A DNA stretch of 13,504 bases from Methanobacteriaceae archaeon (GTDB lineage: Archaea > Methanobacteriota > Methanobacteria > Methanobacteriales > Methanobacteriaceae), in assembly GCA_900766745.1 (NCBI GenBank), contig CAAFWR010000025.1:1-13504 (forward strand). The letters are read 5' to 3'. Shown here one piece after another: positions 1 through 12,349 of this stretch; position 1 is the stretch's first letter; each line of letters opens with the position of its first letter. Below the pieces are notes generated by a model. That model was given only the letters and a program-made list of their open reading frames with translations, had not been told where the DNA came from and ran no database searches. The position numbers and the translations under genes are program-made.

Positions 1-115
1 AAGAAACATTATTAACATTCTGAAGATTTACAGAATTATTAATAAAAATACAATCAGTTAAAGTACCCTTTTCACCATTCCAAAGCACAGCACCTCCATT
101 TTGGAAACTGAAGTT
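1..115 (-). CDS. Adhesin-like protein (ALP) repeat, partial, no start codon
   Basis: Read on the minus strand, 115 down to 1 is an open frame of 38 codons that runs off the left edge. It begins NFSFQNGGAVLWNG and continues with GTLTDCIFINN, the GGA-V-W / F-x-N-N pattern of Chlam_PMP-type right-handed beta-helix repeats found in methanogen surface adhesin-like proteins. The codon just before is an in-frame TGA (118-116), with a TAA a few codons further upstream, so there is no signal peptide and no usable start. GTG at 88 follows a GGAGGTG string only 2 nt away, which is probably a chance product of Gly codons. The frame points away from the genes in the window. The family call is good for the visible stretch; whether it is a pseudogene, a silent cassette or an expressed gene cannot be decided from 115 bases. 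Confidence 0.7.
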
Positions 116-131
116 TCAAAAAGAAAAAAAT
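100..131 (-). repeat. Junction element, left copy (T-run plus palindrome)
   Basis: On the minus strand this reads A, seven T, C, four T, then TGAAACTTCAGTTTCCAAA. It contains the 14-bp palindrome GAAACTTCAGTTTC (104-117; 6-bp arms, 2-nt centre). A closely matching copy lies in opposite orientation at 12316-12349. In both copies the ALP reading frame opens just after the TGA inside the element. Confidence 0.8.
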
Positions 132-192
132 TATATTGGATGCACTTCTTTTTTAAAAATATGAAAAACTAGAACAGATAATCAATAGTGAA

Positions 193-247
193 AAAGCATA
201 AAAAAGAGAATTGAGGAATAATATGTTTGATTTTTAAAACCCTCAAT
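193..247 (-). terminator. Hairpin plus T-run after the NSS transporter gene
   Basis: About 12 nt past the transporter stop, the minus strand has ATTGAGG (247-241) and CCTCAAT (216-210) as perfect 7-bp arms around a 24-nt AT-rich loop. TCTCTTTTTTATGCTTTTT follows. The position and T-run fit termination of the dprA-transporter transcript. The long loop lowers confidence in the stem; the T-run alone could suffice in archaea. Confidence 0.5.
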
Positions 248-259
248 AAACAAGAACAT

Positions 260-1732
260 TTACTCTTCACTTGGAACCGATTTACCATATTTGGTAAGAA
301 GTGCAGCTCCACCAATAACACCAACTAATAGTATAATTCCTACAATAGCTTCTAAAGGCTTTAATGATAATAATAATGAAGATAAACCCCATATCCATAT
401 TCCAATAAGAATGACAGGAAGGATATATTTAATAATAGCAATCCAGACTCTCCCAACTTTAAATAGAGAGTTCTTATTAAGAATATCTACCAAATGATCA
501 ATTCCATATAACCATCCAAATATTATACATTGAAGAGCTATAATAAACAATATACCGAATTCATTTACAAATCCATCTACAATACTTACTAGATAACTTC
601 CAATACCTGATGTGAAACAAAGAGATATTAAAAAACCAATAATACAAAGGATTGTAGCTGCTCTTTTACGTGATATTCTGAATTTATCAGCTAATGAGTT
701 TGCAAGTGGTTCGAAAAAACCTACAGCAGAAGTGATACCTGCAAATAAGATTGCAAGGAAGAAAAGAGGTCCAAGAATCTTACCGATACCTCCCATAGCA
801 TCGAATATTGTTGGAAATACGATGAAGATCAGACTGGTACCTTCAGCAATTAGCTGATCAATTGGAATACCTGAGTTAACTGCCATGAATCCGAGAATTG
901 CAAAAACACCAAAAGCCGTAAAGATTTCAAAACCTGAATTTGAACCGACTACAAGTAACACATAATCGTTTAATCTTGCATTTTTATCTAAATAGCTAGC
1001 ATAGGTAATAGCTATAGCCTGACCCATTGAAAGTGAGAAAATAATCTGTGCAAATGCTGAAATCCAAATATCAACATGAGTTAAACTAGACCAATCTGGT
1101 TGTAGGAGAACATCGATACCAAGTTCATGACCTGGCAATGTAAAGGCGAAAACGACAATAATCCCCATGATAATGAAAAGTATAGGGATTAAGAATTTAG
1201 AGACTTTACCAATACCCTTTTCAACTGATCTGTGTGAAATAAACCAGATAATAATCCACATAACAGCTACTCCAACTACTGCTGGAAGAATAACTCTTTC
1301 GATACCCCCAATGTCAGATCCCCCACCTACAGATTGTGAGAAGAATAATCCTGGATTATTACCCCAAATCTGGAAAGGACTTCCAACAAGATAAATCAAA
1401 TCCCAAGCTACAATAACTAAATAATAACAACAGACAATAAAAACCAGTAAAGCTAGAATCCACCCTATAATTTCAAGTTTAGGTTTTATATGTTCCAAAA
1501 TCCTTGCAAAAGACTTTTTAAAACTGAATCCTATTCCATATTCCAAGATTAAAAATGGAATACCCATAATCAATATAGCTGTAAAATATGGAATGAAAAA
1601 TGCTCCTCCACCATTACTGTAGAGAACATAACTAAATCTCCAGATATTTCCAAGTCCAACTGCCGCTCCAATCATTGCCATTAGAAAAGCAAGAGAACTG
1701 TCCCATTTCTGTTGTTCATTTTTATTTGACAT
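260..1732 (-). CDS. Sodium-dependent transporter, NSS (neurotransmitter:sodium symporter) family
   Basis: A 490-residue integral membrane protein of the LeuT-fold NSS family, which imports amino acids or similar small molecules with sodium. Visible family marks are the TM1 motif AAVGLGNIWRF (residues 23-33), the unwound TM6 segment FSLSMGQAIAITYASY (232-247), GITSA in TM8 (332-336, where LeuT has its Na2-site Thr-Ser pair), and an Asp in TM10 (VDGF, about 386) at the position of the LeuT extracellular-gate Asp. The Arg after TM1 (about 32) would be its gate partner. There are about 11-12 hydrophobic segments and the length is normal. The start ATG has a GTGAT sequence 3-4 nt upstream. It lies 25 nt after dprA and may share its transcript. 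It is a paralogue of the transporter at 4945-6417. The substrate cannot be read from the sequence; an amino acid is most likely. Confidence 0.93.
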   Translation of the reverse strand: MSNKNEQQKWDSSLAFLMAMIGAAVGLGNIWRFSYVLYSNGGGAFFIPYFTAILIMGIPFLILEYGIGFSFKKSFARILEHIKPKLEIIGWILALLVFIVCCYYLVIVAWDLIYLVGSPFQIWGNNPGLFFSQSVGGGSDIGGIERVILPAVVGVAVMWIIIWFISHRSVEKGIGKVSKFLIPILFIIMGIIVVFAFTLPGHELGIDVLLQPDWSSLTHVDIWISAFAQIIFSLSMGQAIAITYASYLDKNARLNDYVLLVVGSNSGFEIFTAFGVFAILGFMAVNSGIPIDQLIAEGTSLIFIVFPTIFDAMGGIGKILGPLFFLAILFAGITSAVGFFEPLANSLADKFRISRKRAATILCIIGFLISLCFTSGIGSYLVSIVDGFVNEFGILFIIALQCIIFGWLYGIDHLVDILNKNSLFKVGRVWIAIIKYILPVILIGIWIWGLSSLLLSLKPLEAIVGIILLVGVIGGAALLTKYGKSVPSEE

Positions 1733-1757
1733 ATAATCACGTCATTAATGAAATAAA

Positions 1758-2675
1758 TTAAATAAAATCTAATAATGTAGATTGATAATCTCTTTTTTTA
1801 GGTTTACTTTCTAAGAATTGAATAAATCTAGAAACATCCCCCTCATTATCAACCCTAATTGATTGGTGCCTATATTTGTTTAAAATTAATTTACTGCCAG
1901 TGAAATCATCACTTCCGCAGTCTTCAGGTAAAAAGCAAGCAAGTTTACGATTCAACCTTCTTGCGTAATCAACTGTTTCCATAGTGCCGCTGTCAGTTGA
2001 ACACTGCCCTACGAAAATACCATCAGATAATGAAGCCACATACTGATTTCTTATTGAATAATTGGATTGATTGACATCTGAATTAGGTTTGAATCCTGAA
2101 ATAAGACATCCCTCATTGTTAACAATTAATTTAGCAAGGCCTATATTATTTTCAGGAGAGATTTTATTGATCCCATTAGGCATAACTGCAATAGTTGGCT
2201 CTCCAATATCGACAGCTGCAGTATGTGCTATTTTATCACAGCCTAAAGCAAATCCGCTTACAATGACCCTTTCAAAGTTCATTATAATGTCATGGACGAA
2301 TTTATATTCAAAGTTTTGAGTATCAAGACTAGGTTTTCTAGTACCAATAACACCAATATTAGGTTTAGAAAGTATTTTGTAATTTCCAATAACATATAAG
2401 AAAGGAGGTGCTTTAGCTCCCAAATCCTTTAAATTATCTGGATATTCTTTATCAAATATTGTAACAGCAGTAAGATTTTGACTATTCTCAATTTGTTCAT
2501 ATGTTTTCTCAGAAATCTCTAAAGCTTTATCAACATCTTCTTTAGAATATTCCTTCAAAAGATAGCTATTGAAATCCTTAATTTTAGGAATGCTTGGAAC
2601 ATAGTCATTATTTATCTTAATATGACTCATTCTTTTAATATTTGATAAAAGTAATAATTCTTTAAAATACTTCAT
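1758..2675 (-). CDS. dprA: DprA/Smf-like DNA-processing protein (SLOG Rossmann fold)
   Basis: About 305 residues from the ATG at 2675; a TTG at 2690 would add five residues, and neither start has a strong SD. The DprA core is clear: FDKEYPDNLKDL with PPFLYVIGN (the usual YPxxL...P..L...G entry), VIGTRKPS, IVSGFALGCDKIAH (the SGxAxGID-type loop), LISGFKPN, RNQYVASLSDGIFV and SGTMETVDYARRL. The N-terminus before these motifs (about 70 residues) is helical and poorly conserved. The C-terminus after the Rossmann domain is short, so the winged-helix domain of many bacterial DprA proteins is missing. Bacterial DprA binds single-stranded DNA and loads RecA during transformation. The archaeal role is less clear, and some SLOG proteins act in defence or nucleotide sensing. 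It is followed at 25 nt by an NSS transporter gene. Confidence 0.88.
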   Translation of the reverse strand: MKYFKELLLLSNIKRMSHIKINNDYVPSIPKIKDFNSYLLKEYSKEDVDKALEISEKTYEQIENSQNLTAVTIFDKEYPDNLKDLGAKAPPFLYVIGNYKILSKPNIGVIGTRKPSLDTQNFEYKFVHDIIMNFERVIVSGFALGCDKIAHTAAVDIGEPTIAVMPNGINKISPENNIGLAKLIVNNEGCLISGFKPNSDVNQSNYSIRNQYVASLSDGIFVGQCSTDSGTMETVDYARRLNRKLACFLPEDCGSDDFTGSKLILNKYRHQSIRVDNEGDVSRFIQFLESKPKKRDYQSTLLDFI

Positions 2676-2723
2676 ACAACCCACAAACAATATCTTTGTA
2701 AGTTTTTATTAAAATAATTTTAT

Positions 2724-2760
2724 TAAAAAAAAGTTGAAAGAAACTTTAATTGTTTCTTTC
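2724..2760 (-). terminator. Intrinsic-type terminator with the stop codon in its loop
   Basis: On the minus strand GAAAGAAAC (2760-2752) and GTTTCTTTC (2744-2736) form a perfect 9-bp stem around a 7-nt loop, AATTAAA. The gene's TAA stop (2748-2746) lies inside that loop. AACTTTTTTTT follows. This is the clearest hairpin-plus-T terminator in the window. It separates the 125-aa gene from dprA, so the two are probably not one transcript. Confidence 0.72.
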
Positions 2761-3123
2761 ATATTTGTTGAAAAACCAGGCAGCAAGCTCTACAAGAGTG
2801 CTACGCAATGCCAATACCCTATCAATAGATCCGTCTCTTTCCATTACATAATCACGTAATAGCTTAGCCCTTTCAAATTTATCTCTGATTTCAGGAGTAA
2901 TAACCCCTTCTTCCCCTAATTCAAACATGTTTCTTGTAAAGAAACTTTTGTAGACATAATTCATGTTTTCTTTTGCATAAACCTCTTTAATTAGTGCATT
3001 TAAAAAGTCACTACCAGACTGTGCACTTGCCTTGTGGTCTAAAAACATGTTCTTTTCCATTTCAGAACCATACTTGTATAAAGCAGGGTTTGTATTTTCT
3101 AACAAGTCAAAATTTAATCCCAT
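2746..3123 (-). CDS. Small helical protein, weakly DUF4145-like; function unknown
   Basis: A 125-residue soluble protein, predicted mostly helical. The start is set at the ATG at 3123 (MGLNFDLL), because GGGAGATGAT sits 3 nt upstream; the longer frame from 3138 begins inside that SD. The layout resembles DUF4145, an all-helical domain often found beside or fused to restriction and other defence proteins. There is an N-terminal LNFDLLENTNPALYKYGSEME stretch, a middle helix with FLNALIKEVYAKEN, and a C-terminal ALRSTLVELAAWFFNKY helix that resembles the usual end of that domain. No RxxxxH motif of active HEPN RNases is visible, and there is no signal peptide or metal site. It has its own TATA-like promoter and terminator, so it is probably monocistronic. 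The family link is inference by eye and could be wrong. Confidence 0.6.
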   Translation of the reverse strand: MGLNFDLLENTNPALYKYGSEMEKNMFLDHKASAQSGSDFLNALIKEVYAKENMNYVYKSFFTRNMFELGEEGVITPEIRDKFERAKLLRDYVMERDGSIDRVLALRSTLVELAAWFFNKYERNN

Positions 3124-3166
3124 TTTATCATCTCCCATTTAATATTAACAATTAAGTTGAATAAAC

Positions 3167-3180
3167 TTATATTTAAATAT
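3167..3180 (-). promoter_or_regulatory. TATA-like promoter of the 125-aa gene
   Basis: The minus strand reads ATATTTAAATATAA here, about 45-57 nt upstream of the ATG at 3123. An archaeal TATA box places the transcript start some 25 nt further on, near 3145, giving a leader of about 20 nt that includes the GGGAGATGAT ribosome binding site. Confidence 0.45.
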
Positions 3181-3289
3181 TAAGATTAATTCCCATGAAA
3201 ACAAGAGATAGAATATTAAAAAGAAACACAATCACTTATAAAAAAACTCAATAATGTTTGATATGGTGAAAAATAGATCATGTAATAAA

Positions 3290-3328
3290 TAAAAAGTAGA
3301 AGTAATGAAAAAACTTCCAATAACTTCT
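3290..3328 (-). terminator. Putative terminator of the zinc-ribbon gene
   Basis: Some 15 nt after the stop at 3343, the minus strand has AGAAGT (3328-3323) and ACTTCT (3303-3298) as 6-bp arms, followed by ACTTTTTATTT. The arms are short, so the T-run may be the real signal. Confidence 0.4.
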
Positions 3329-3342
3329 TTATTTATAAAACA

Positions 3343-3741
3343 TTAAGCCATGAGAGCCCTTAAAAAAATAAGAGCTGACAATATTGCAACAATTACGCCG
3401 TGCATAACAGTTTGTTCATCACTGATTAATTTTAATGACACGTAAATAGATAACATGACTGATAATAATGGATATAAGATTAATCTATCTGCATTTATTA
3501 CCTTAACACTACCCCATGCAAAAAATACTGAACCTAAAAGTATTAAAACGGTTAAATAACCAATTCCTATAAATGCATATTTTTTAATTTTTTCATAATG
3601 GCTATCCACATTAGCTACAGTAACTTGATTATTTGAAATAGGTCGGCTATTTAAACTAGACCCCTCCATTTTTGTTCCACATTCATTACAAAATTGAGCA
3701 TTTTCTTCAACTAATGCACCACAGTTAGGACAATAACCCAT
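3343..3741 (-). CDS. Zinc-ribbon membrane protein
   Basis: A 132-residue protein starting at the ATG at 3741, which has GGAGGT 6 nt upstream. A longer frame from 3780 lacks any SD and would add 13 residues before the zinc ribbon. Residues 1-25 hold MGYCPNCGALVEENAQFCNE followed by CG, two CxxC knuckles of the zinc_ribbon_2 / DZR type. After a polar linker come three hydrophobic segments: KYAFIGIGYLTVLILLGSVF, then LILYPLLSVMLSIYVSLKLI, then a C-terminal one ending in FLRALMA. Such proteins are common and poorly understood in archaea and bacteria; the ribbon probably faces the cytoplasm and binds a partner. It is the last gene of the run that begins at ftsY and is preceded by a 20-codon small ORF. 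The specific function is unknown. Confidence 0.85.
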   Translation of the reverse strand: MGYCPNCGALVEENAQFCNECGTKMEGSSLNSRPISNNQVTVANVDSHYEKIKKYAFIGIGYLTVLILLGSVFFAWGSVKVINADRLILYPLLSVMLSIYVSLKLISDEQTVMHGVIVAILSALIFLRALMA

Positions 3742-3772
3742 AAATAACCTCCATTTGTTTTTATTTATCTTA

Positions 3773-3835
3773 CTAAACATATTTAATTTCTTTTAATTCA
3801 TTTTCAATATTCAGATATGCATAGATATCTTCCAT
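3773..3835 (-). CDS. 20-residue small ORF or leader peptide between capA-like and zinc-ribbon genes
   Basis: The ATG at 3835 has a textbook AGGTG ribosome binding site 5 nt upstream (3845-3841). It opens MEDIYAYLNIENELKEIKYV and stops at TAG (3775-3773). It lies 32 nt after the capA-like stop and 31 nt before the ATG of the zinc-ribbon gene. The peptide is acidic and helical with no membrane segment. The SD is as good as those of the neighbouring real genes. It could be a small protein, a leader peptide coupled to the next gene, or the stub of a decayed gene. No homologue is recognised. Confidence 0.45.
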   Translation of the reverse strand: MEDIYAYLNIENELKEIKYV

Positions 3836-3867
3836 TTAATCACCTTTGTTTAGTTATCTATTTGGAA

Positions 3868-4926
3868 TTAATCAGTAAGATTATAAGATACCCTTCCAAT
3901 TCCATCATCGCCAATAGCTAATTTATCACAGGAAGGACTTAAACTCTCAAGTAGGGATTTTCCATTGTCCGCTGACATGAACTGAGGCAGATATCCAACA
4001 ATACTGATAGGATAAACAGTACATTCAACAGTGCCGTTAATCAAATCTATTTCCACAAAATATGCAGAGTGTGTTGCAGGATTTTGCTGATCGAAAATAA
4101 AGTTTCCTAAGCTATAGAAAATCATTGATCCGTTGTAGAATTCCATTCCTTGAGGAACGTGAGGATGTGAACCTAGAACAATATCTGCTCCTGCATCAAT
4201 TACCTCATGAGACATATTTACCTGGTATTCGTTTGGAGATGTGTGGTACTCATTTCCATAGTGGAAAAATACGATTACAAAATCTGAATTCTCATGTGCT
4301 TTTTTAATGTCTTCACAAACGCTGGAATCATATGCAGAGTAACCTGGTGAATCATCAGTAGCTACAGGCATCACGTCGTTACCGTATTCTGCAAAGTTTT
4401 GGGAATCCATAAAATTGAATATAGTAATGTTACGACCGTTAATTTCTTTTGTAACACTTCTATGTGCTTCATCAGCATTATCTCCAGCACCGATTGGAGT
4501 TATGTTGTTTTTCTCAAGATTTTCCACTGTATCATGCATTCCCTCAATTCCATAGTCAAATGCATGATTGTTTGCAAGTGAAGCTACAGTATTTGGATTG
4601 TTTCGAGCCAAAGGCACAAAGTCAGGACTTGTCTTTAGAGGAACATCTCCTTTAACTGCATTTCCGGAAGTTGTAGCTGCATTTTCAAAATTAATCAAAA
4701 GCAGGTCTGTTTTAGATGTTACATTAGCTACATTTACAAAAGGACTTTCCCCACTTGAAAGCACTCCTGCCATGTTACGTGCAAACATAACGTCCCCTGT
4801 AACAGCTATTGAGACATTCCCCTTATTTTCACTGACAATACCAGTACTGCTGTCAAAGGCCATTAATCCTATTAAAACAGCCCCCAATATAATAATAGCT
4901 ATTATGATTAATTTTCTAGAGTTCAT
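3868..4926 (-). CDS. CapA/PgsA-family metallophosphatase-like protein, membrane-anchored
   Basis: A 352-residue protein with an N-terminal hydrophobic anchor (residues 5-23, KLIIIAIIILGAVLIGLMA), then an extracellular domain of the PGA_cap / CapA family. Its calcineurin-like motifs appear in order: TGDVMFAR (43-50), INFENA (78-83), LANNHAFDYG (117-126), FFHYGNEY (220-227), LGSHPHVPQG (251-260) and YSLGNFIFDQ (271-280). The Asp, Asn and His residues in these motifs fit a metal site. In Bacillus, CapA/PgsA takes part in poly-gamma-glutamate capsule synthesis or export. In methanogens related proteins are single and not next to capBC, as here, so capsule synthesis is not shown; an envelope phosphatase role is equally possible. 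The start at 4926 has only a weak GGTAG upstream, but it lies 18 nt after the transporter stop, which suggests coupling. Confidence 0.85.
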   Translation of the reverse strand: MNSRKLIIIAIIILGAVLIGLMAFDSSTGIVSENKGNVSIAVTGDVMFARNMAGVLSSGESPFVNVANVTSKTDLLLINFENAATTSGNAVKGDVPLKTSPDFVPLARNNPNTVASLANNHAFDYGIEGMHDTVENLEKNNITPIGAGDNADEAHRSVTKEINGRNITIFNFMDSQNFAEYGNDVMPVATDDSPGYSAYDSSVCEDIKKAHENSDFVIVFFHYGNEYHTSPNEYQVNMSHEVIDAGADIVLGSHPHVPQGMEFYNGSMIFYSLGNFIFDQQNPATHSAYFVEIDLINGTVECTVYPISIVGYLPQFMSADNGKSLLESLSPSCDKLAIGDDGIGRVSYNLTD

Positions 4927-4944
4927 TTAACTACCACTCGCTAG

Positions 4945-6417
4945 CTATGCTTCATTAACCTTCCTTGATTTTGCAAAATGATTCAATATAAACGGCACAA
5001 CAAGCAATACTGCAAACAATATCAGCTCAACAAAGAGAGACATGTTGTTTGAAAATGAAAGTGTTGAAACAAGACCTGTTACCCATAAAACGAGAAGAAC
5101 AATAGGTAAAATAAATTTAATCAGATATTTCCATAATGATCCAATTTTAATGGAAGTGTTTCTGTTTAAAACTTCAATTAAATCATCGATTTTATAGAAC
5201 CAGGCAAATATGATACATTCAAATACAATAGCTAGAATCAGTGCAAAATTGTTTAATATTCTGTCAAAGATTCCTAAAACAGTACTTCCAGCACCGGTTG
5301 TAAATATTGCTGTTACACAAAAACCAATAATACAGAGAATTGTTACCGCTTTTTTACGGGTTAAATCAAATTCTGTTATTAAAGATGAAGTTACGGACTC
5401 TGCAAGAGCAATAGCTGATGTGATACCTGCAATTAAAATACAGAAGAAGAACAATGGCCCTATTATATAAGCTGCACCACCCATCACATTAAATACTTCC
5501 GGAAATGCAACGAAAGCAAGCCCTGTTCCTTCAGTAACCAGACCGTCAAAACCAACACCTGTAGAAAGTGCCATGAATCCTAAAATTGAGAAAACACCAA
5601 TAGCGTTAAATACCTCGAAACCAGAGTTGGAAGCAACTACAATACCTGCATTCTTAGTCAAATTAGTTTTTTTGCCTAAATAGCTTGAATATGTAATAGC
5701 TATTGCCATACCAATAGATAATGAGAAAATAACCTGACCAAATGCAGCTAACCAGATATTGGCATCAAGTAATGCATTCCAGTCTGGTGTAAACATAGCA
5801 GTATAACCGATAGAAGCTCCAGGTAAAGTTAAGGAAAATCCGACGATAATAACAATTAAAACAAATAAGAGAGGTACAGCAACGTTACTGAATTTAGAAA
5901 CTCCGTCATTAATGTTTCTATGTGAGATTAACCAGATTACAAACCAGACTATTAAACAGGATATGAAAACAATAGGAACAATCTCCAACATACCTCCAAA
6001 TGTAGGATTGTCATGTAAAACTGATGTAACAAAATAATTGTTAGGATCTGCTCCCCATCCTTTAAAGAAACTTAACACAAGATAAATTAAATCCCATCCT
6101 ACTATACAGACATAGTAACTTAAGATTAAAAATACAATAAGAAGGGTAAACCATGCGATAACCCTAAATTTAGTTTTGATTTTACCATAAATCTCTAAAA
6201 GAGAAGTTTTAAATTTATACCCTACAGCATATTCAAGCAGAACACCTGAAAAACCTAAAAGAACAATAGCTACGATATAAGGTATCATAAAAGATCCTCC
6301 ACCGTGAGAATAAAGAACATAAGGATATCTCCAAATATTCCCAAGTCCAACAGCAGAACCGATCATAGCCATCAAAAATGAAAAATTACTATTCCATTGA
6401 GTACCGTTTTCTGACAT
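4945..6417 (-). CDS. Sodium-dependent transporter, NSS family (second copy)
   Basis: A 490-residue paralogue of the transporter at 260-1732, with the same length and motif layout. TM1 has SAVGLGNIWRYPY (residues 21-33), TM6 has FSLSIGMAIAITYSSY (231-246), TM8 has GITSA (331-335), and TM10 has an Asp in FDRILNNFA. The two copies agree well at the membrane core and differ in loops, so they are older duplicates, probably with different substrates. The ATG at 6417 is 6 nt past the ftsY stop. Its likely SD (AGGGGAATAG) lies inside the last codons of ftsY, so translation is probably coupled. Role: sodium-driven uptake of an amino acid or related solute; the substrate is not readable. The pairing with ftsY is probably positional rather than functional. 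Confidence 0.93.
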   Translation of the reverse strand: MSENGTQWNSNFSFLMAMIGSAVGLGNIWRYPYVLYSHGGGSFMIPYIVAIVLLGFSGVLLEYAVGYKFKTSLLEIYGKIKTKFRVIAWFTLLIVFLILSYYVCIVGWDLIYLVLSFFKGWGADPNNYFVTSVLHDNPTFGGMLEIVPIVFISCLIVWFVIWLISHRNINDGVSKFSNVAVPLLFVLIVIIVGFSLTLPGASIGYTAMFTPDWNALLDANIWLAAFGQVIFSLSIGMAIAITYSSYLGKKTNLTKNAGIVVASNSGFEVFNAIGVFSILGFMALSTGVGFDGLVTEGTGLAFVAFPEVFNVMGGAAYIIGPLFFFCILIAGITSAIALAESVTSSLITEFDLTRKKAVTILCIIGFCVTAIFTTGAGSTVLGIFDRILNNFALILAIVFECIIFAWFYKIDDLIEVLNRNTSIKIGSLWKYLIKFILPIVLLVLWVTGLVSTLSFSNNMSLFVELILFAVLLVVPFILNHFAKSRKVNEA

Positions 6418-6423
6418 AAAAAT

Positions 6424-7623
6424 CTATTCCCCTATTTCTTCCTCATCACTGGAAAATAGCTGATTAAGCATCCATTCCGGATCATATTCCTTAATATCAT
6501 CATAACCCTGACCTACACCTAAAAAGAGAATCGGTCTTTTAATTACATAACCTATAGAAAGTGAAGCGCCACCCTTACTGTCAGCGTCTGCTTTAGTTAG
6601 AATAACTCCATCGATGTCAATAGCTTCATTGAATTTTGCAGCCTGTTCAGTTGCATCATTACCAGTTAAGGCATCACCAACAAATACAACCAAATCAGGT
6701 TTGGATACACGTTTGATCTTTTTCATTTCATCCATAAGGTTTGTGTTGGTCTGCATCCTACCTGCAGTATCTATTAAAACAAGTTCCTTACCTTTAGCTC
6801 TTGCATGTTCCACAGCATCAAATGCAACAGCTGCAGGATCAGAACCTTTTTGGTGCTTAATGATTTTAACACCAACATTGTCAGCATGGTGAGTTACTTG
6901 TTCAATTGCTCCAGCACGAAATGTGTCACTGGCAGCTATTACAGGTTCATAACCTTTTTTAAGATAATAATTAGCTAATTTACCAATAGTGGTGGTTTTT
7001 CCAGTGCCGTTAATACCTACAAACATAACAACAAATGGTCCGTTTTCCTTCTCTTCAATCATTTCAGTCATTGATTTGCCTGGAATGTCAATAATGTCAG
7101 ATACTGCATCTTTAAGTGCATTGAAAGTATATTCAGTAATGTCATTGCTTCTTTTAATTTTACGACCAACTAAATTGTTTTTAACAGAATCGACCACATT
7201 ACTTGCTACTTCCATAGCCACATCCCCTTCAAGAAGTCCCATTTCAAGGTCCCAAAGAGTATCCTCTAAATGTTTTTCAGAGATGGTTTTCTCACGGACA
7301 AATGAAAAAATACCCCCATTGCTTTTTTTATTTCTTTTAAAATTAAAACGGGATTTTTTCTCTTCCTCAACAGGTTCATCTTCTATATTTTCTCCTTCAG
7401 ATGAGTTGGAAGTTGAATTTTCATCTTCCCCATCATCTGCCTCAGGCAATTCTGGAGTTGAAGGTTCTTCCTCTTTATTTTTATTACCAAATGAGAAGAA
7501 AGACTTCTTTTTTTCTTGAGGCTCTTCATCAGAAATATTATTTTCCTCTTCAGCTTCCTCTTTAAGTTCTTCTTCTAATTTGTCACTAGTTTTAGAAAAT
7601 TTTTTCTTTAAAGATTCAAACAA
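6424..7623 (-). CDS. ftsY: Signal recognition particle receptor FtsY
   Basis: A 399-residue SRP receptor GTPase that docks ribosome-SRP complexes at the membrane and pairs with SRP54. Residues 1-105 are an acidic/basic low-complexity A-region (runs such as KLEEELKEEAEEEN and DEPVEEEKKSRF). The helical N domain follows at about 110-190. The G domain carries the P-loop GINGTGKTTT (203-212), DTFRAGA (233-239), DTAGRMQTNTNLMDE (285-299) and TKADADSKGGA (343-353). The start is TTG at 7623, supported by GGTGAT 5 nt upstream. A TATA box lies about 60 nt upstream, and a second possible promoter plus structured leader lies further out. It heads a run with the transporter, the capA-like gene and the zinc-ribbon gene. 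Finding it just after pfdA is a known archaeal gene order. Confidence 0.97.
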   Translation of the reverse strand: MFESLKKKFSKTSDKLEEELKEEAEEENNISDEEPQEKKKSFFSFGNKNKEEEPSTPELPEADDGEDENSTSNSSEGENIEDEPVEEEKKSRFNFKRNKKSNGGIFSFVREKTISEKHLEDTLWDLEMGLLEGDVAMEVASNVVDSVKNNLVGRKIKRSNDITEYTFNALKDAVSDIIDIPGKSMTEMIEEKENGPFVVMFVGINGTGKTTTIGKLANYYLKKGYEPVIAASDTFRAGAIEQVTHHADNVGVKIIKHQKGSDPAAVAFDAVEHARAKGKELVLIDTAGRMQTNTNLMDEMKKIKRVSKPDLVVFVGDALTGNDATEQAAKFNEAIDIDGVILTKADADSKGGASLSIGYVIKRPILFLGVGQGYDDIKEYDPEWMLNQLFSSDEEEIGE

Positions 7624-7680
7624 GCTAAATCACCATCATTATGAATATTAAGAAATACAATAATTTAAGATAAGAAAAAT

Positions 7681-7691
7681 TATTATATACC
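7681..7691 (-). promoter_or_regulatory. Proximal TATA box of ftsY
   Basis: The minus strand reads GGTATATAATA, about 58-68 nt upstream of the TTG start. A transcript start about 25 nt downstream (near 7660) would leave a short leader containing the GGTGAT ribosome binding site. Confidence 0.55.
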
Positions 7692-7741
7692 ACCATTTTT
7701 GTTGCTAATTGATAATAAATGAATATGGTTTTTTATAAAAA

Positions 7742-7790
7742 ATTGCATGTTGAGATCCTTGGTTTGGGGAGCCTCTCTCAACTATGCAGT
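7742..7790. ncRNA. Candidate structured RNA or attenuator hairpin between ftsY and pfdA
   Basis: The plus strand has TGCATGTTGAGA (7744-7755) pairing with TCTCAACTATGCA (7776-7788), a 12-bp stem with one bulged base. The loop is 20 nt and contains a possible inner GGTT/AGCC stem (7761-7764 with 7770-7773). The strand is unclear. Plus-strand RNA gains G-U pairs (7743-7789, 7763-7771). On the minus strand the stem is followed at once by TTTTTTAT (7737-7730), as in a terminator, and a TTTATATA box lies upstream at 7885-7878. A second small hairpin (TGCACA 7818-7823 with TGTGCA 7837-7842) lies 28 nt to the right. It may be an independent RNA of about 110-125 nt or the attenuated leader of ftsY. 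No known RNA family was recognised. Confidence 0.4.
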
Positions 7791-7877
7791 GGTTACAATT
7801 TAAAAAAAAGAGCGTATTGCACACTACATAATTACCTGTGCATATATCATAACCAGTTAATTAGTAGATAATTGTAC

Positions 7878-7886
7878 TATATAAAT
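7878..7886 (-). promoter_or_regulatory. TATA box, distal ftsY or small-RNA promoter
   Basis: The minus strand reads ATTTATATA, containing TTTATATA, the methanogen TATA consensus. The expected transcript start is near 7857. Transcription from here would cross both hairpins before reaching ftsY at 7623. Confidence 0.45.
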
Positions 7887-7919
7887 ATTATTATTAATGC
7901 CAAAAAAGACTTCAGTTAA

Positions 7920-7964
7920 TTATTGTTTTTTTAGTATGAACATATACTTTCACAAAAACAATAA
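7920..7964. repeat. Compound inverted repeat (cruciform-like) downstream of pfdA
   Basis: TTATTGTTTTT (7920-7930) and AAAAACAATAA (7954-7964) are perfect 11-bp arms. Inside them AGTAT (7933-7937) and ATACT (7944-7948) form a second stem with a 6-nt loop. The unit lies just beyond the T-rich runs after pfdA and before the TATA box at 7878. It may be a terminator or processing hairpin, or a protein-binding site. Confidence 0.5.
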
Positions 7965-7975
7965 CAATTAAAAGT

Positions 7976-8010
7976 TACTAAAAAAAAGAAATAAAAAAGA
8001 AATTAAAATA
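7976..8010 (-). terminator. T-rich terminator of the ribosomal-protein/pfdA transcript
   Basis: Directly after the pfdA stop the minus strand has a long pyrimidine stretch with runs of six and seven T (TTTCTTTTTTATTTCTTTTTTT). Archaeal RNA polymerase stops at such runs without needing a hairpin. The location at the end of the long operon fits. Confidence 0.6.
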
Positions 8011-8013
8011 AGT

Positions 8014-8445
8014 TTATTGTCCAGTTAATGGACCTTGTGCAGATGCAGCTAACTGATTAGCCTGATTAGTTAAAGCTCCAACAACGTCAGTGACTTGTTG
8101 TAAGTTTGCAAGCATTTTATCTAAGCTATCTTTTAAGTCTTCTTTTTGACCTGCAACAATAGCTTTAGCTCCTTCAACATCTTTTTTAATAGCATATCCT
8201 GCACCAATACTTATAATAATTTCGTCTGTGTTTTCAAGATTCCCTTTCATGAAAGAACCAGCACCAACAGGCACAAATGCTTCAACGGAATCTTTACCTT
8301 TTAAATCATCTAAAGTGTTAGTTAATGTGTCAATTTCAGCCATTGACGCTTGTATTAATTCAATTTGTTGTTGAATTAATTCTGCTTGTTGGTTGTACAT
8401 ATTGATTTCATTAACTATTTGTTCTAAATTTTGCTGATCTTCCAT
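8014..8445 (-). CDS. pfdA: Prefoldin subunit alpha
   Basis: A 143-residue subunit of the hexameric (alpha2 beta4) prefoldin co-chaperone, which passes unfolded proteins to the thermosome. It has the expected form: an N-terminal coiled-coil helix rich in Gln and Ile (NLEQIVNEINMYNQQAELIQ), a beta-hairpin core with FVPVGAGSFMKGNL and EIIISIGAGYAIKK (GAG..KG and SIGAGY are typical), and a C-terminal coiled coil ending in a low-complexity QLAASAQGPLTGQ tail. The start is the ATG at 8445, with AGGTGA 5 nt upstream; a GTG at 8454 belongs to that SD and is rejected. It is the last gene of the ribosomal cluster, 57 nt after LX, followed by a T-rich terminator. Confidence 0.95.
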   Translation of the reverse strand: MEDQQNLEQIVNEINMYNQQAELIQQQIELIQASMAEIDTLTNTLDDLKGKDSVEAFVPVGAGSFMKGNLENTDEIIISIGAGYAIKKDVEGAKAIVAGQKEDLKDSLDKMLANLQQVTDVVGALTNQANQLAASAQGPLTGQ

Positions 8446-8473
8446 ATTTTTCACCTACTTTAAAATGTAATAT

Positions 8474-8488
8474 TAACATATATTGTTA
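8474..8488. repeat. Short inverted repeat in the LX-pfdA gap
   Basis: TAACA (8474-8478) and TGTTA (8484-8488) flank TATAT. On the minus strand the sequence ACAATATATGTTAAT lies about 30-45 nt before the pfdA ATG and could be a TATA element for an internal pfdA promoter, or an RNA processing site. Confidence 0.25.
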
Positions 8489-8502
8489 TATTATTTAAGT
8501 GT

Positions 8503-8733
8503 TTATAGAATCTCTTTTACAATTGGATCAGTAACGTCTTCAGGTGCAATTTCAACAATCTCATCAATGGAAATCTGATTTCTATTGAGATGGTGTTTGC
8601 TTCCAAAACGTTCGTAGACTTTTTCTTCAATATCAGCTTCGCTAGTAGCTTTATATTCTTTAACGAATATGCTTTTGTCGTCACCCATTATAAAAGTACC
8701 TTTAACTCTGTAAATTTTTGTTTTTGTTTCCAT
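8503..8733 (-). CDS. rpl18a: Ribosomal protein L18Ae / LX (L20e)
   Basis: A 76-residue small archaeal LX protein of the large ribosomal subunit, homologous to part of eukaryotic L18a. It begins with a strand-rich KTKIYRVKGTFIMGDDKSIFVKEYKA (here split as KTKIYRVKGT and FIMGDDKSIFVKEY), followed by a helix (EADIEEKVYERFGSKHHLNR), then the NQISIDEIVEI strand typical of the family, and an acidic tail. Length is normal. The ATG at 8733 follows GAGGT at a spacing of about 6 nt, and eif6 ends 18 nt upstream. The order eif6-LX-pfdA is conserved in many Euryarchaeota and ties it to the same operon. Confidence 0.93.
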   Translation of the reverse strand: METKTKIYRVKGTFIMGDDKSIFVKEYKATSEADIEEKVYERFGSKHHLNRNQISIDEIVEIAPEDVTDPIVKEIL

Positions 8734-8751
8734 AAGAATACCTCAGAAGTT

Positions 8752-9423
8752 TTAATAATCATCTAAAAAGCCTAATGATTCTTCAACTCTAGCCATTTCA
8801 GGACCAGTACTGTCTTTAGCAACAATAGCTCCTTTAGAATTTGCAATGGAACATGCTCCAACTAAAGAAATTCCATGTCCAACAGTACCTACATCACCTT
8901 CAACACCAAATACATCACGAGCAAAATCAATTTCAGATTCTGTAGCATTTTTACCCATTAAAAATCCTTTATTTGTAGAAGTGATAAGAGAACCGATAAT
9001 GTCACTACCAACCATAGATGTAGCTTGAACATCAACATCTAAAGTATTGGACAAGACATCAATAGCATCTTCATCTAAAAATGGACTTACAATAGCACCA
9101 TTGTCATTACATGCAACAATGTTACCTACTGCAGTATATTTTCCAGGAATTTTAGCTACATTCAAACCTAAATCTTCAAGTTGCTTGATTTCTCTGTCTA
9201 ATGCATGTGGACTTACAACAATACCATTTGAATTAGCTACAGCTAAAGATCCAATAAGGTTACTACCAGCTATTGAAGATCTTACAACATCAACTTCTAA
9301 TGCTTCTTTAATGATGTCCACTTTATCATCTAAAAGATTAAATGGAACAATAGCAATATCTTCTGTTGTAAGAATAAAGACTCCTACATTAGGATTTCCA
9401 ATTATATCTGTTCTTTTTAACAT
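8752..9423 (-). CDS. eif6: Translation initiation factor 6 (aIF-6)
   Basis: A 223-residue anti-association factor that binds the large ribosomal subunit and keeps it from joining the small subunit until assembly is complete. The fivefold pseudo-repeat (pentein) is easy to see: repeated blocks such as SSIAGSNLIGSLAVANSNGI, AVGNIVACNDNGAIVSP, TSMVGSDIIGSLITSTNKG and HGISLVGACSIANSKGAIV. The start is the ATG at 9423 (MLKRTDIIGNPNVGVF), with AGGTGAT 4 nt upstream; the GTG at 9432 is part of that SD. It lies 48 nt after rpl31e. Length matches the family. Confidence 0.96.
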   Translation of the reverse strand: MLKRTDIIGNPNVGVFILTTEDIAIVPFNLLDDKVDIIKEALEVDVVRSSIAGSNLIGSLAVANSNGIVVSPHALDREIKQLEDLGLNVAKIPGKYTAVGNIVACNDNGAIVSPFLDEDAIDVLSNTLDVDVQATSMVGSDIIGSLITSTNKGFLMGKNATESEIDFARDVFGVEGDVGTVGHGISLVGACSIANSKGAIVAKDSTGPEMARVEESLGFLDDY

Positions 9424-9452
9424 GGTAATCACCTTTGACTTTAATTATTTAC

Positions 9453-9475
9453 TAGTATAAAAACATGATGTTTAT
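9453..9475 (-). promoter_or_regulatory. Hairpin and TATA-like run between rpl31e and eif6
   Basis: Overlapping the rpl31e stop, the minus strand reads AAACATCATGTTT, two 6-base arms around one base, followed by TTATACTAG. It could be a weak internal terminator, an RNA processing site, or a TATA element for an internal eif6 promoter. The arms are short, so this is tentative. Confidence 0.25.
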
Positions 9476-9717
9476 TCTGCTAAAGTTGCTTCAACAACAC
9501 CATCATCATCTTTAACTGCTTTAACAGTAATTTTAGAAGGTATTTTTTGAATACCTCTTTCCCAAATCATATGATTAATAGATTCATCTAATTTTACTTC
9601 TTCAGCTTTCATATGTTTGATCAAGAAGTTTTGTACTTCCTTAATAGCCCTAGGAGCCCTAATAGTCCTTTTAACTTTTTTAGCGTTTCTAAGTGGAATA
9701 GTGTATACTCTTTCCAT
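9472..9717 (-). CDS. rpl31e: Ribosomal protein L31e
   Basis: An 81-residue archaeal/eukaryotic large-subunit protein. It opens [20 protein letters not shown], followed by [20 protein letters not shown], which is the L31e pattern (I.PL..a..v.r..RA..A...ir.Fi.kHmk). The conserved [20 protein letters not shown] follows, then a C-terminal strand, [18 protein letters not shown]. The ATG at 9717 has GGGGGAT about 6 nt upstream and is 12 nt past the rpl39e stop. L39e and L31e lie together near the peptide exit tunnel and their genes are adjacent in most archaea. Confidence 0.96.
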
Positions 9718-9729
9718 GAAAAATCCCCC

Positions 9730-9885
9730 TTATAATTTAAGACTGTTTCTTCTCCAATGTCTAGGTTTAGGTCTGTATCTAAGTTTACGGTTAGTTTTAG
9801 CATAAGCCCAGATTGGAATTCTTCTGTTTTGTTTAGTTGCTTTTGCCATTCTTAATTTTTTAGCTAATGGTTTATTTCTACTCAT
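9730..9885 (-). CDS. rpl39e: Ribosomal protein L39e
   Basis: A 51-residue, highly basic large-subunit protein that lines the exit tunnel. The translation is [20 protein letters not shown], then [20 protein letters not shown], then [11 protein letters not shown]. The RR.P.W...KT...R.....R.WRR..L.. signature is diagnostic, and 51 residues is the usual length. The ATG at 9885 has AGGTGA 4 nt upstream. It sits 14 nt after the PP-loop gene and 12 nt before rpl31e. It is easily missed because of its size. Confidence 0.96.
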
Positions 9886-9899
9886 TATTTCACCTTTAA

Positions 9900-10481
9900 T
9901 TATTTATATCCAATAACACGAGTTTGATAATGTTCAGGGAAAATATCTGTTGAATTTCCGCCTTTTTCATCAATTAAAGTTCTTATTTCAACTTCATAAT
10001 CAGAATTATTATCCTTATTGCTCCTTTCACTAGAAACTTCAAATAAATTAGAAGTAACCATGTTAATAGTCTTAAATCCAAAACTGTCTAAATTAATATA
10101 TTGAACATCCTTGCGGTCTTCAAGACTTCTAATTTGGTTTTTATCAAGTTTAGGAGTTCTATCGTCTCTACGAGTTCCGTCAGCAATTACGTCAAATCTG
10201 CTAGCAACCTCTTCAACTACATTTTCATGAAGAAACTTAATACCATCATTTGGAAATCCGTCTTCCATAATCATATTACATGCTTCATCTAAAATGTCAT
10301 TATCAAGGTTTACTACCTTATGAGTAAAACCGAGAGATTCAGCTGAAAGACTAGCGGGAATAAATGAATCATAGACTCCGAAATTAACAGTACATAACTC
10401 TACATCAAAACCTAATCTCTGTAAAGTAACGCCCATTAATGAGCTGTCCTTTCCTCCGCTGTATAGAACGCAAGCTTTCAT
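9900..10481 (-). CDS. PP-loop (N-type ATP pyrophosphatase) protein, asparagine-synthase/tRNA-thiolation-like
   Basis: A 193-residue protein with an N-terminal PP-loop, [13 protein letters not shown] (residues 5-17), the ATP-binding SGGxDS motif of adenylating enzymes such as ThiI, TtcA, GuaA and asparagine synthase. A second conserved patch is [20 protein letters not shown] (about 95-115), where GTRRDDR probably takes the place of the GHxxDD-type loop. The final [15 protein letters not shown] stretch is also typical of this archaeal family. The family sits between PDCD5 and L39e in many methanogens, which hints at a translation role such as RNA modification. The substrate and product are not known from sequence. 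The ATG at 10481 is 6 nt after the PDCD5 stop, with AAGGA overlapping that gene's end. Confidence 0.85.
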
Positions 10482-10487
10482 TTAAAA

Positions 10488-10844
10488 CTATTTCCTTGTA
10501 ATTTTAATCTCTCTTTTCTGACCTGCAATCTGTTGAAGAAGTACTTTTAACTGTTCATCAGTTACTTTACCTCTAAGACTACCAGCCTGTGCTGACTGAA
10601 TAAGTTGAATTTCAATTTGTTGAACGAGCTCAGGTTTAGTTAATCTTAAATTAGCTAACCTATTACGCGCTTCAGAAGTTAAAATCTGAGACAAAATTTG
10701 TTTCTTTTGAGATTCAAATTGTCTTTGTGCCTCTTCTTGCTGCATTTGCTGTTGTGCTTGCATTTGCATTTGCTGTTGTGAAGCAGCTTGTTGTGCTTGT
10801 AATTCAGCCATTCTTTTACGACGTATTTCATCAAGATCGCTCAT
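10488..10844 (-). CDS. PDCD5-family DNA-binding protein
   Basis: A 118-residue protein of the archaeal/eukaryotic PDCD5 (TFAR19) family. It starts at the ATG at 10844 (MSDLDEIRRKRMAELQAQQ), with AGGAGAG 6 nt upstream; the longer frame from a TTG at 10868 has no SD. The N-terminal third is a Gln-rich helix (AASQQQMQMQAQQQMQQEEA). The core carries the family marks ILSQILTSEARNRLANLRL, KPELVQQIEIQLIQSAQAG and a KVTDEQLKVLLQQI helix, ending with a basic IKITRK tail. Homologues bind double-stranded DNA weakly, and the eukaryotic protein interacts with chaperonin complexes. The cellular role in archaea is unclear. It lies 24 nt after rps19e, a conserved pairing. Confidence 0.94.
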   Translation of the reverse strand: MSDLDEIRRKRMAELQAQQAASQQQMQMQAQQQMQQEEAQRQFESQKKQILSQILTSEARNRLANLRLTKPELVQQIEIQLIQSAQAGSLRGKVTDEQLKVLLQQIAGQKREIKITRK

Positions 10845-10868
10845 ATCAAACTCTCCTATTAAATCCAA

Positions 10869-11306
10869 TTAATATTTTTCAAGTTCAGGAATATCTTCAA
10901 TGATTTTACCAGATATTTTATCTAAGTAAGATCTTCCTGCAGGAGTAACAACTCTTCCACCTTCAACTTTTTCAACAAAACCTGCATCTTCTAATTGGTG
11001 TAAAGCTCCTCTAATAATAGCTCCACTACCTTTTTTAAATACCTCTGGACGTACACCACGGTCTTTTTTACCGCCGTAGTAAGTTCTTAAACTCATAACT
11101 CCAACAGGACCATCCATATAAACTCTTCTAAAAATAGAAGCAGCTCTGACAAACCACCAGTCTGGGTTTTCAGGTTTTCTTTCTTTATGGACACCAGTTT
11201 TTACAAAGTCCGCCCATTCAGGAGGATTGATTTTATCATTGTTTTTAAATTCTTCTGCAACAGTATCAATTAATACTTCTGCAGGTACATCAAATACAGT
11301 AGTCAT
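10869..11306 (-). CDS. rps19e: Ribosomal protein S19e
   Basis: A 145-residue small-subunit protein needed for 30S maturation. Family marks are [19 protein letters not shown] at the N-terminus, [40 protein letters not shown] (the most conserved block), [40 protein letters not shown], and a C-terminal [16 protein letters not shown]. The ATG at 11306 has GGAG about 7 nt upstream. A 92-nt gap with two TAAATTTAAG repeats and a hairpin separates it from the gene before, so it may have its own promoter and head the downstream ribosomal run. Confidence 0.97.
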
Positions 11307-11353
11307 ATTAATTCTCCAATATTTTTATTAAATAATGGCCTCATAATAAACTG

Positions 11354-11392
11354 TAAATTTAAGACCTTCAGGTCCGTAACTCTAAATTTAAG
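11354..11392 (-). promoter_or_regulatory. Repeat pair flanking a hairpin upstream of rps19e
   Basis: In the 92-nt gap before rps19e the decamer TAAATTTAAG occurs at 11354-11363 and 11383-11392. GACCTTCAGGTC (11363-11374), a short hairpin, sits between them. The two copies (CTTAAATTTA on the coding strand) could be tandem TATA-like elements or operator half-sites, and the hairpin could belong to an autoregulatory leader. A chance AT-rich repeat is possible. Confidence 0.3.
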
Positions 11393-11398
11393 CAATGT

Positions 11399-11656
11399 TT
11401 AAGGCTTTCTTTTATAAATGACAGCAACATTTCCTCTAACATCGACGAGTTTAGCTCTAGTTTTCTGGACAATGTCATTTATATAATCATCTTTATCTTT
11501 AGCGATATTTTTTGCAAATTTGAGCTTAACAATTTCATTATCCTTAAGCTGACGCTTAATTTCCTCGATTACATTATCATTAACCGCAGCTTTACCAATG
11601 TTAATTGTCATAGCGTTAAGAGCTCTATTCATAAGTTCTTTTTTATTTCGAATCAT
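11399..11656 (-). CDS. CRM-domain (YhbY-like) RNA-binding protein
   Basis: An 85-residue stand-alone CRM domain protein related to bacterial YhbY, which associates with pre-50S particles. The pattern visible is LMNRALNAMTINIGKAAVND (the I.IGK.G...V loop, here GKAAV instead of the usual GK.G), then IEEIKRQLKDNEIVKLKFAK, and a C-terminal AKLVDVRGNVAVIYKRKP (the GN..vlYr motif). Its ATG lies inside the end of rnp4 (14-nt overlap), with GGAG 8 nt upstream, so translation is probably coupled. The pairing with an RNase P subunit suggests a role in RNA processing or ribosome assembly; the exact role is unproven. Confidence 0.88.
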   Translation of the reverse strand: MIRNKKELMNRALNAMTINIGKAAVNDNVIEEIKRQLKDNEIVKLKFAKNIAKDKDDYINDIVQKTRAKLVDVRGNVAVIYKRKP

Positions 11657-11990
11657 GCTTAGCTCTCCTTTTATTTTTTTTCTCCTTTTGATAAGGAATT
11701 TTCATAGTATGACCACATTCACCACAAAAAATATGAATATTTTCATCAATTAGCCGGACGGTAGAATTATGGCCATAGTAAAGGAAGTTATTACAATTTT
11801 TACAATACCTTCTAGACCATTTTTCAGGAATTTTAGTATTGTACTTAGTTGATATCTTTTTAGCCATTTCAACATACCTTTTAGATCTTTCAGGATGTTT
11901 ATGAAACTGCTTTTCTGCATTTTCAAAAAGGATATCCATCCTTTCAATAGCTATATCAATAATCCACTTAGGTCTTTTTCCTCTACTCAA
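11643..11990 (-). CDS. rnp4: RNase P protein component 4 (Rpr2/Rpp21)
   Basis: A 115-residue zinc-binding subunit of archaeal RNase P, which removes 5' leaders from tRNA precursors. It starts with a basic SRGKRPKWIIDIAIERMDIL helix, then a second helix with HPERSKRYVEMAKKISTKYN. The zinc ribbon follows: RYCKNCNNFL and, 24 residues later, FCGECGHTMKIPY, giving four cysteines as in Rpp21. The tail is strongly basic. The start is taken as TTG at 11990, because GAGGGA lies 5-6 nt upstream; the first open-frame TTG (12002) overlaps that SD. No other start is close. It overlaps the next gene by 14 nt. It is the first gene of the minus-strand run. Confidence 0.94.
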   Translation of the reverse strand: MSRGKRPKWIIDIAIERMDILFENAEKQFHKHPERSKRYVEMAKKISTKYNTKIPEKWSRRYCKNCNNFLYYGHNSTVRLIDENIHIFCGECGHTMKIPYQKEKKNKRRAKHDSK

Positions 11991-12127
11991 AATATCCCTC
12001 AAATTAATAATAGGATATAATATTCAAGAATTTGAATTAAAATGATTTGCGCATAATAAAACAAAGAACCATAGTTAAAAAATTAACCTTAGGTTATTAT
12101 GAATATTAGGAATAATTATGTTTTTAG

Positions 12128-12139
12128 ATATTTATAAAT
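12128..12139. promoter_or_regulatory. TATA-like element in the right-hand spacer
   Basis: TATTTATAAATG contains the near-symmetric TTTATAAA, so it could work either way. Leftward it would start rnp4 with a leader of about 115 nt. Rightward it would start an RNA near 12160, at the hairpin described next. The 12003-12333 spacer has no gene; this box, the hairpin, T-runs and a second TATA box are all I see in it. Confidence 0.3.
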
Positions 12140-12149
12140 GTTAGGTTTA

Positions 12150-12173
12150 AACTGACAAATTTGATTGTCAGTT
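12150..12173. repeat. Perfect 9-bp inverted repeat in the right-hand spacer
   Basis: AACTGACAA (12150-12158) and TTGTCAGTT (12165-12173) are perfect arms around ATTTGA. On the plus strand, T-runs follow at 12206-12220 (ATTTTTTATTTTTTC). Together with the TATA-like box just upstream this could bound a short plus-strand RNA of about 60-70 nt, or be an operator for one of the flanking units. Confidence 0.4.
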
Positions 12174-12268
12174 AGACAACAAGTCCCTTCTTAGACCCAA
12201 CAGATTTTTTATTTTTTCTAATTTCACATATATTTGGTTAAATAGGCAATATTATAGTTTAAATTCTA

Positions 12269-12278
12269 CTATATAAAT
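12269..12278 (+). promoter_or_regulatory. TATA box upstream of the right ALP frame
   Basis: CTATATAAAT matches the archaeal TATA consensus on the plus strand and would start transcription near 12300, some 30 nt before the TGA at 12331. The RNA would therefore enter the ALP frame, but no start codon with an SD exists in it. TTG at 12313 opens only six codons before the TGA. Confidence 0.4.
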
Positions 12279-12315
12279 TCTAAATACTCTAAAATTAAAA
12301 AGATTATTTTAATTG

Positions 12316-12349
12316 ATTTTTTTATTTTCGTGAAACTTCAGTTTCCAAA
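12316..12349 (+). repeat. Junction element, right copy (T-run plus palindrome)
   Basis: It reads A, seven T, A, four T, CG, then TGAAACTTCAGTTTCCAAA. The last 19 bases are identical to the left copy at 118-100, and the T-run differs only by one base and the CG insertion. The 14-bp palindrome is at 12332-12345. The in-frame TGA of the ALP frame is at 12331-12333. Orientation is opposite to the left copy. Confidence 0.8.

Follow-up and report, generated by a model that had tools for sequence, protein, structure and literature searches.

Why should two adhesin genes that face away from each other, both lacking their front parts, begin at exactly the same short sequence 12.2 kb apart? The question is raised by a stretch of 13,504 nucleotides from a Methanobacteriaceae archaeon (assembly GCA_900766745.1, contig CAAFWR010000025.1, positions 1 to 13,504 of the forward strand), which we refer to in its whole length as the window. 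Each end of the window holds an open frame for an adhesin-like protein (ALP), and the original prediction had ascribed the identical inverted elements at the 5' edges of these frames to a site-specific or homology-driven event: an inversion, a cassette exchange, or the insertion of the block between them. Our analysis suggests that the headless frames are probably two of many silent ALP cassettes, a dispersed archive whose members are exchanged at conserved borders. The features on which this reading turns are the following.

1..115, minus strand: putative left silent ALP cassette, 5' part, NFSFQNGGAVLWNGEKGTLTDCIFINNSVNLQNVNNVS; 38 codons, continuing beyond the window; no signal peptide
100..118, minus strand: 5' border element TGAAACTTCAGTTTCCAAA, left copy; in-frame TGA at 116-118
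12331..12349, plus strand: 5' border element, right copy, identical to the left copy and inverted relative to it; in-frame TGA at 12331-12333
12334..13504, plus strand: putative right silent ALP cassette; 390 codons open to the window end; predicted right-handed beta-helix
13385..13398, plus strand: internal homologue of the border, GAAACCTCAATTTC (RNLNF); 12 of 14 bases as in the element

The 19 bases of the element are indeed found exactly at both ALP edges, on opposite strands, and with up to 3 mismatches allowed the window still holds 2 matches, where 0.01 would be expected (200 shuffles). As had also been described, a run of seven T lies upstream of both copies, the ALP frames open directly after the TGA of the element (left NFSFQNGGAVLW..., right NFSFQTGNGGAVFW...), and the DNA behind the element, on the side away from the ALP, is unrelated at either copy. 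The codons that open both frames after the in-frame TGA are NFSFQ, and the likeness between the left and right cassettes just past the element is about 77%. As read from the sequence, both frames lack a signal peptide, and the first possible start codon of the right frame is a TTG at 12394, 20 codons in. The third, diverged copy of the element within the right cassette codes for RNLNF in ITFRNLNFT, and because of this copy the element is taken as homologous to a conserved ALP coding stretch and not foreign to ALPs. The palindrome pointed out in the original prediction (GAAACT-TC-AGTTTC) is present but not rare by itself, as the window contains 9 stretches of the same 6+2+6 shape, and the further copies expected in relatives did not turn up: the 18-base core, with at most 1 mismatch, has 1 match in 138 genomes of the family, against 2 for the reversed control. 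For these reasons the palindrome carries less weight, and its interpretation as a serine-invertase site was made less likely by the 9 similar palindromes and the coding homology at 13385. What remains striking is the exact coincidence of the two starts: cassettes with a likeness of about 77% share 19 identical bases at the very point where they open. Scans of the window for tRNAs and RNA families gave no match (no Rfam family).

The right cassette was assigned by Pfam to PF13229, the beta-helix repeat body, and its structure model is a beta-helix with a mean pLDDT of 91.3, the first 6 residues having low confidence. Among solved structures the best matches were proteins such as PL6 lyases, which we take to be beta-helices, at low TM-scores. 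Set against the criteria for methanogen adhesin-like proteins, the window copies have the beta-helix body and lack the signal peptide. Adhesin-like proteins with right-handed beta-helix domains have been described in Methanobrevibacter (PMC11532034); the domain is what these proteins have in common with the full-length relatives found here, and the missing signal peptide is what sets the window copies apart. The words recombination, cassette and truncated are absent from its main text.

The frames in the window have many counterparts in public data. Three protein searches (best 120 of 644, 13 of 13 and best 120 of 1180 matches, with overlaps) gave 233 distinct related proteins, a set that is not a census, as lengths of 0.55-1.75 times the query were admitted. 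A 3' motif, VLNNETYYYPPN.NIN (VLNNETYYYPPNxNIN), was found with at most 4 substitutions in 32 of the 233; these cassette proteins were chosen by the motif, and their sharing of it is by selection. What follows the motif differs: 28 of the 32 continue for at least 4 residues, and the continuations fall into 23 groups, although P0008 and P0082, counted as two of these groups, are probably one place. No cassette protein (0/32) has a signal-like start, the maximum 12-residue hydropathy within the first 40 residues being at most 1.76, as opposed to 3.44-3.60 by the same measure for five full-length ALPs. A looser signal-peptide filter had flagged 12 of the 32, all of them in repeat sequence, and the hydropathy measure was used instead. 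One member, P0057, has an odd start, which appears to be out of frame. The 3' border itself varies at one or two residues among the cassettes. At the level of the proteins, the picture is one of many cassettes cut at one point and set in different surroundings.

The key sign of exchange at a fixed border comes from five of these proteins (P0042, P0121, P0122, P0124 and P0126), in all of which the 3' motif leads into one and the same sequence, made up of 21 spacer residues and a HAD phosphatase. Over the 287 residues that follow the motif, all 10 pairwise comparisons give 99.7-100% identity, as against 49-57% for the cassettes that precede it. Compared as proteins, which is the level at which this holds, five different cassettes are found at one place, the phosphatase flank. 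The longest contigs for these proteins range from 3,589 to 113,954 bases; P0121 and P0122 each occur on 2 contigs, and the upper value belongs to P0121. The phosphatase is 75% identical to its counterpart in the relative genome G065 and 70% to that in G060. A second case is the pair P0039 and P0056, which have a common 20-residue tail behind cassettes that are 44% alike. The 5' border is represented by P0019 and P0020, identical at 214 of 214 residues up to FRNF, after which 24 of 36 aligned residues agree, and this switch point corresponds to the codons that match the window element. The left cassette of the window finds its best match (76% over 29 aa) in the first residues of P0124, one of the cassettes that precede the HAD phosphatase gene, and this gives weak reason to place the window in the same lineage as the phosphatase-flank proteins. 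Two independent random truncations, already considered a poor explanation in the original prediction, explain little here, given natural variants with breakpoints at matching ALP codons and a second, 3' border; a cassette-exchange border is a good explanation of the shared junction, supported by natural variants that break at both borders.

Five full-length ALPs (P0123, P0125, P0136, P0158 and P0159) are built from a signal-like start, a domain with ITFK at its end, a beta-helix body and an immunoglobulin (Ig)-like end, Pfam having been applied to P0136 and P0123. Their body begins with NF or SF after ITFK and has the VLNNET or VLDNET motif, followed by SPNQ and not PPN. P0158 and P0159 share one body; without this pair, likeness is 42-52% between bodies and 68-86% between front parts. 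Between end parts it is 60-79%, except in the comparisons with P0125 (33-35%). On these features the five are candidate expressed recipients. As a separate observation, P0158 and P0159 are identical save that P0159 is longer by 87 residues, in which an Ig-like-looking repeat occurs for a second time; this suggests repeat-number variation in the stalk.

We propose that silent ALP cassettes would be stored singly at dispersed chromosomal places, each cut at fixed 5' and 3' borders, and that recombination would exchange them between these places with the two borders as constant joints. Cassettes would also reach an expressed adhesin gene resembling those of P0123, P0125, P0136, P0158 and P0159, and the purpose may be surface-protein variation. 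We favour homologous recombination over the conserved borders, and not a site-specific enzyme, as the presumed process, since the 3' border shows some variation despite its conservation and nothing sets the palindrome apart. A more far-reaching version is tentative: the core chromosome might carry single silent adhesin cassettes at many places, and recombination at two border sites embedded in coding sequence might reshuffle cassettes and the blocks between them genome-wide, as a chromosome-scale shufflon for surface variation in a gut methanogen.

Parasites among the bacteria and protozoa are well known to vary their surface proteins by means of silent cassettes. The vls system of Borrelia has many incomplete surface-protein cassettes with short conserved borders and varies by recombination, and in all of these traits it resembles what we propose; the difference is that the present cassettes appear scattered singly beside archaeal housekeeping genes and are known from sequence alone. 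As in a system of the vls type, the cassettes could not be displayed for want of a signal peptide (2 in the window, 32/32 cassette proteins), they have common borders (the 5' border identical in the 2 window copies, the 3' motif in the 32 proteins picked by it), and different cassettes occur at one place, at the protein level, with five at the phosphatase flank. The vsa locus of Mycoplasma pulmonis and the pilV shufflon likewise use a short conserved site in coding sequence that joins a variable to a constant part. Those systems, however, are clustered and driven by a known recombinase, and none was noticed in the window here.

A number of observations weigh against the proposed archive. P0019 and P0020 lie on short contigs of 1496 and 1773 bases, and for the cassette proteins in general misassembly at shared border sequence is possible case by case. 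P0005 and P0009 are 96% alike over their first 77 residues and then diverge inside the WTVEEFLNKY domain; since this divergence lies within a conserved domain, exchange is not confined to the borders. P0001 begins with NLNF where the window has NFSF, and the 5' border is thus not invariant. Among the best 25 proteins of the search that listed the best 120 of 644 matches, 17 carry the 3' motif and 8 do not, with cuts at contig ends not distinguishable. The 233-protein set contained no full-length gene in which the border has the YYYPPN form, and no ALP-like frame lies beside the phosphatase gene in G065 (about 100 bases upstream covered) or G060 (1.5 kb). Beyond the window the element matched exactly a single time, in an unrelated phage gene; this match, on viral contig L033, is antisense and was rejected. 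No recombinase was noticed among the window frames, 10 of which were scanned with Pfam, and the common lineage of the window and the cassette proteins is one that we infer.

The 3' module had no match at E 0.001 in the 138 family genomes, in a search run without a positive control, and neither motif nor module had a credible match (best E 0.47) in the 1.55 Mb of G065 that were read, out of about 1.6 Mb. G065 has 12 ALP-like frames, 11 of them with a signal-like start by a loose rule. ALP matches in relatives are mostly in long open frames and some are in short ones. No cassettes were found in viral, phage and plasmid collections. The archive looks like a feature of one lineage, or else may have been lost from binned genomes through bad assembly.

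Among other explanations, site-specific inversion fares best, although we regard it as unlikely. Here the elements would be crossover sites for a serine or tyrosine recombinase, which would invert the 12.2 kb between them or larger segments, as the identical inverted sites would allow; their 6-base arms and 2-base centre resemble the layout of known invertase sites. Integrase-family genes are present in 3/3 close genomes, so that a site-specific enzyme may yet be involved; a Resolvase-family match was found in 0/3 (completeness unstated). The abundance of similar palindromes in the window, a core no commoner than its reversed control and the lack of a noticed recombinase all speak against such a system. 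The original prediction had gone further and suggested a phase switch in which recombination between the two copies swaps promoters. This is not supported for these two copies, because the same in-frame TGA stands before both frames and neither has a signal peptide: as read from the sequence, flipping would leave the TGA in place without a useful change of promoter or reading frame, and would activate neither frame. A survey of small inversions reported none in its six archaeal datasets (PMC5903667).

Somewhat less probable again is plain decay, that is, two paralogous ALP genes truncated before duplication, or independently, and now pseudogenes. The missing signal peptide and the TGA in front would fit, and intestinal Methanobacteriota are reported to have more pseudogenes and ALPs (PMC13135261). 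Decay does not sit well with a right frame open for 390 codons or with 32 similar open frames that have one 3' motif, and the cassettes diverge right after the element, which argues against a recent joint duplication. Least probable is an artefact of the metagenome assembly, in which core DNA was connected with ALP reads through repeated border sequence. Both window ends lie in ALP repeats and border sequences are repeated, but a 19-base element would be short for an assembly overlap, the two flanks differ, and the P0121 join is present on 2 contigs, with lengths of up to 113,954 bases. No diversity-generating retroelement was noticed in the window, in which no search aimed at reverse transcriptase or repeats was made.

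Should the archive of silent cassettes be real, a gut archaeon would diversify its adhesins as pathogens do, which would help to explain the high variability of methanogen ALPs and offer a system for testing in Archaea how recombination drives surface variation. Among the open-access papers listed by our searches (20 of 37 in one of them), judged by titles and the starts of abstracts, we found no report of silent ALP cassettes or of ALP phase variation in methanogens.

The DNA between and beside the two elements bears on how the junctions arose, and comprises three further features.

119..259, no strand assigned: left flank, separating the border from the SNF symporter gene (its 3' end); minus strand rich in T; no ALP sequence
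260..12002, minus strand: core chromosomal block, a run from symporter to RNase P4; Pfam for 9 genes (one, at 2746, without a match)
12149..12330, no strand assigned: spacer, with the conserved region upstream of the core operon on one side and the right border on the other; no specific counterpart seen in relatives; TATATAA at 12270-12276

The block encodes an SNF symporter, dprA, a zinc-ribbon protein, PGA_cap, a second SNF symporter, ftsY, prefoldin, L18a, eIF6, L31e, L39e, DUF7411, PDCD5, S19e, YhbY and RNase P component 4, where the names eIF6, L18a, L31e, L39e, PDCD5, S19e and RNase P4 are those we presume to apply. Protein matches to eIF6 came from 31 loci, all titled Methanobrevibacter, the closest at 90%, which points to the chromosome of a Methanobrevibacter-type archaeon. 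The order from RNase P4 to ftsY is kept in relatives, some of which have extra genes between prefoldin and ftsY. The suggestion that the 12-kb block had been inserted was not borne out, the DNA between the elements being ordinary core chromosome with conserved gene order. A transposon with the elements as terminal repeats was rejected on the same ground, and also because both outer sides are 3' parts of ALPs in opposite orientation and not two halves of one gene.

DNA homology to G065 begins at 288 on the left side of the window and ends at 12144 on the right. On the left, the gene that follows the symporter in G065 differs from what the window has. On the right, AMP kinase is found upstream of the RNase P4 gene in 15 of the 23 relative loci that have RNase P4; of the other 8, five (L002, L009, L015, L018 and L029) cover less than 450 bases upstream, and three (L004, L017 and L019, with 1.0, 3.9 and 1.25 kb covered) have no AMP kinase beside RNase P4. 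None of the 18 relative stretches examined has an ALP-like frame beside the RNase P4 gene. In G065 the stretches matching RNase P4 and AMP kinase are 178 bases apart, and by this comparison the right-hand cassette site is empty there. Judged by gene order, the window junctions are breaks in the arrangement seen in relatives. G065 and the window differ elsewhere too, in that G065 has its symporter and dprA 16 kb away from the other genes of the block.

Apart from the conserved upstream region, the spacer at 12149-12330 gave weak matches, which we read as AT-rich noise. It also contains an inverted repeat at 12150-12173, with perfect 9-base arms (AACTGACAA and TTGTCAGTT) around a 6-base loop. 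The 16-kb stretch of G065 (contig C2, 119-135 kb; L138, L139), bounded by dprA on one side and by the counterpart of the 2746 gene on the other, is absent from the window and holds long frames, among them, by eye, a DNA methylase. The window block has two SNF-family symporter genes, at 260-1732 and 4945-6417, and G065 has three within about 26 kb.

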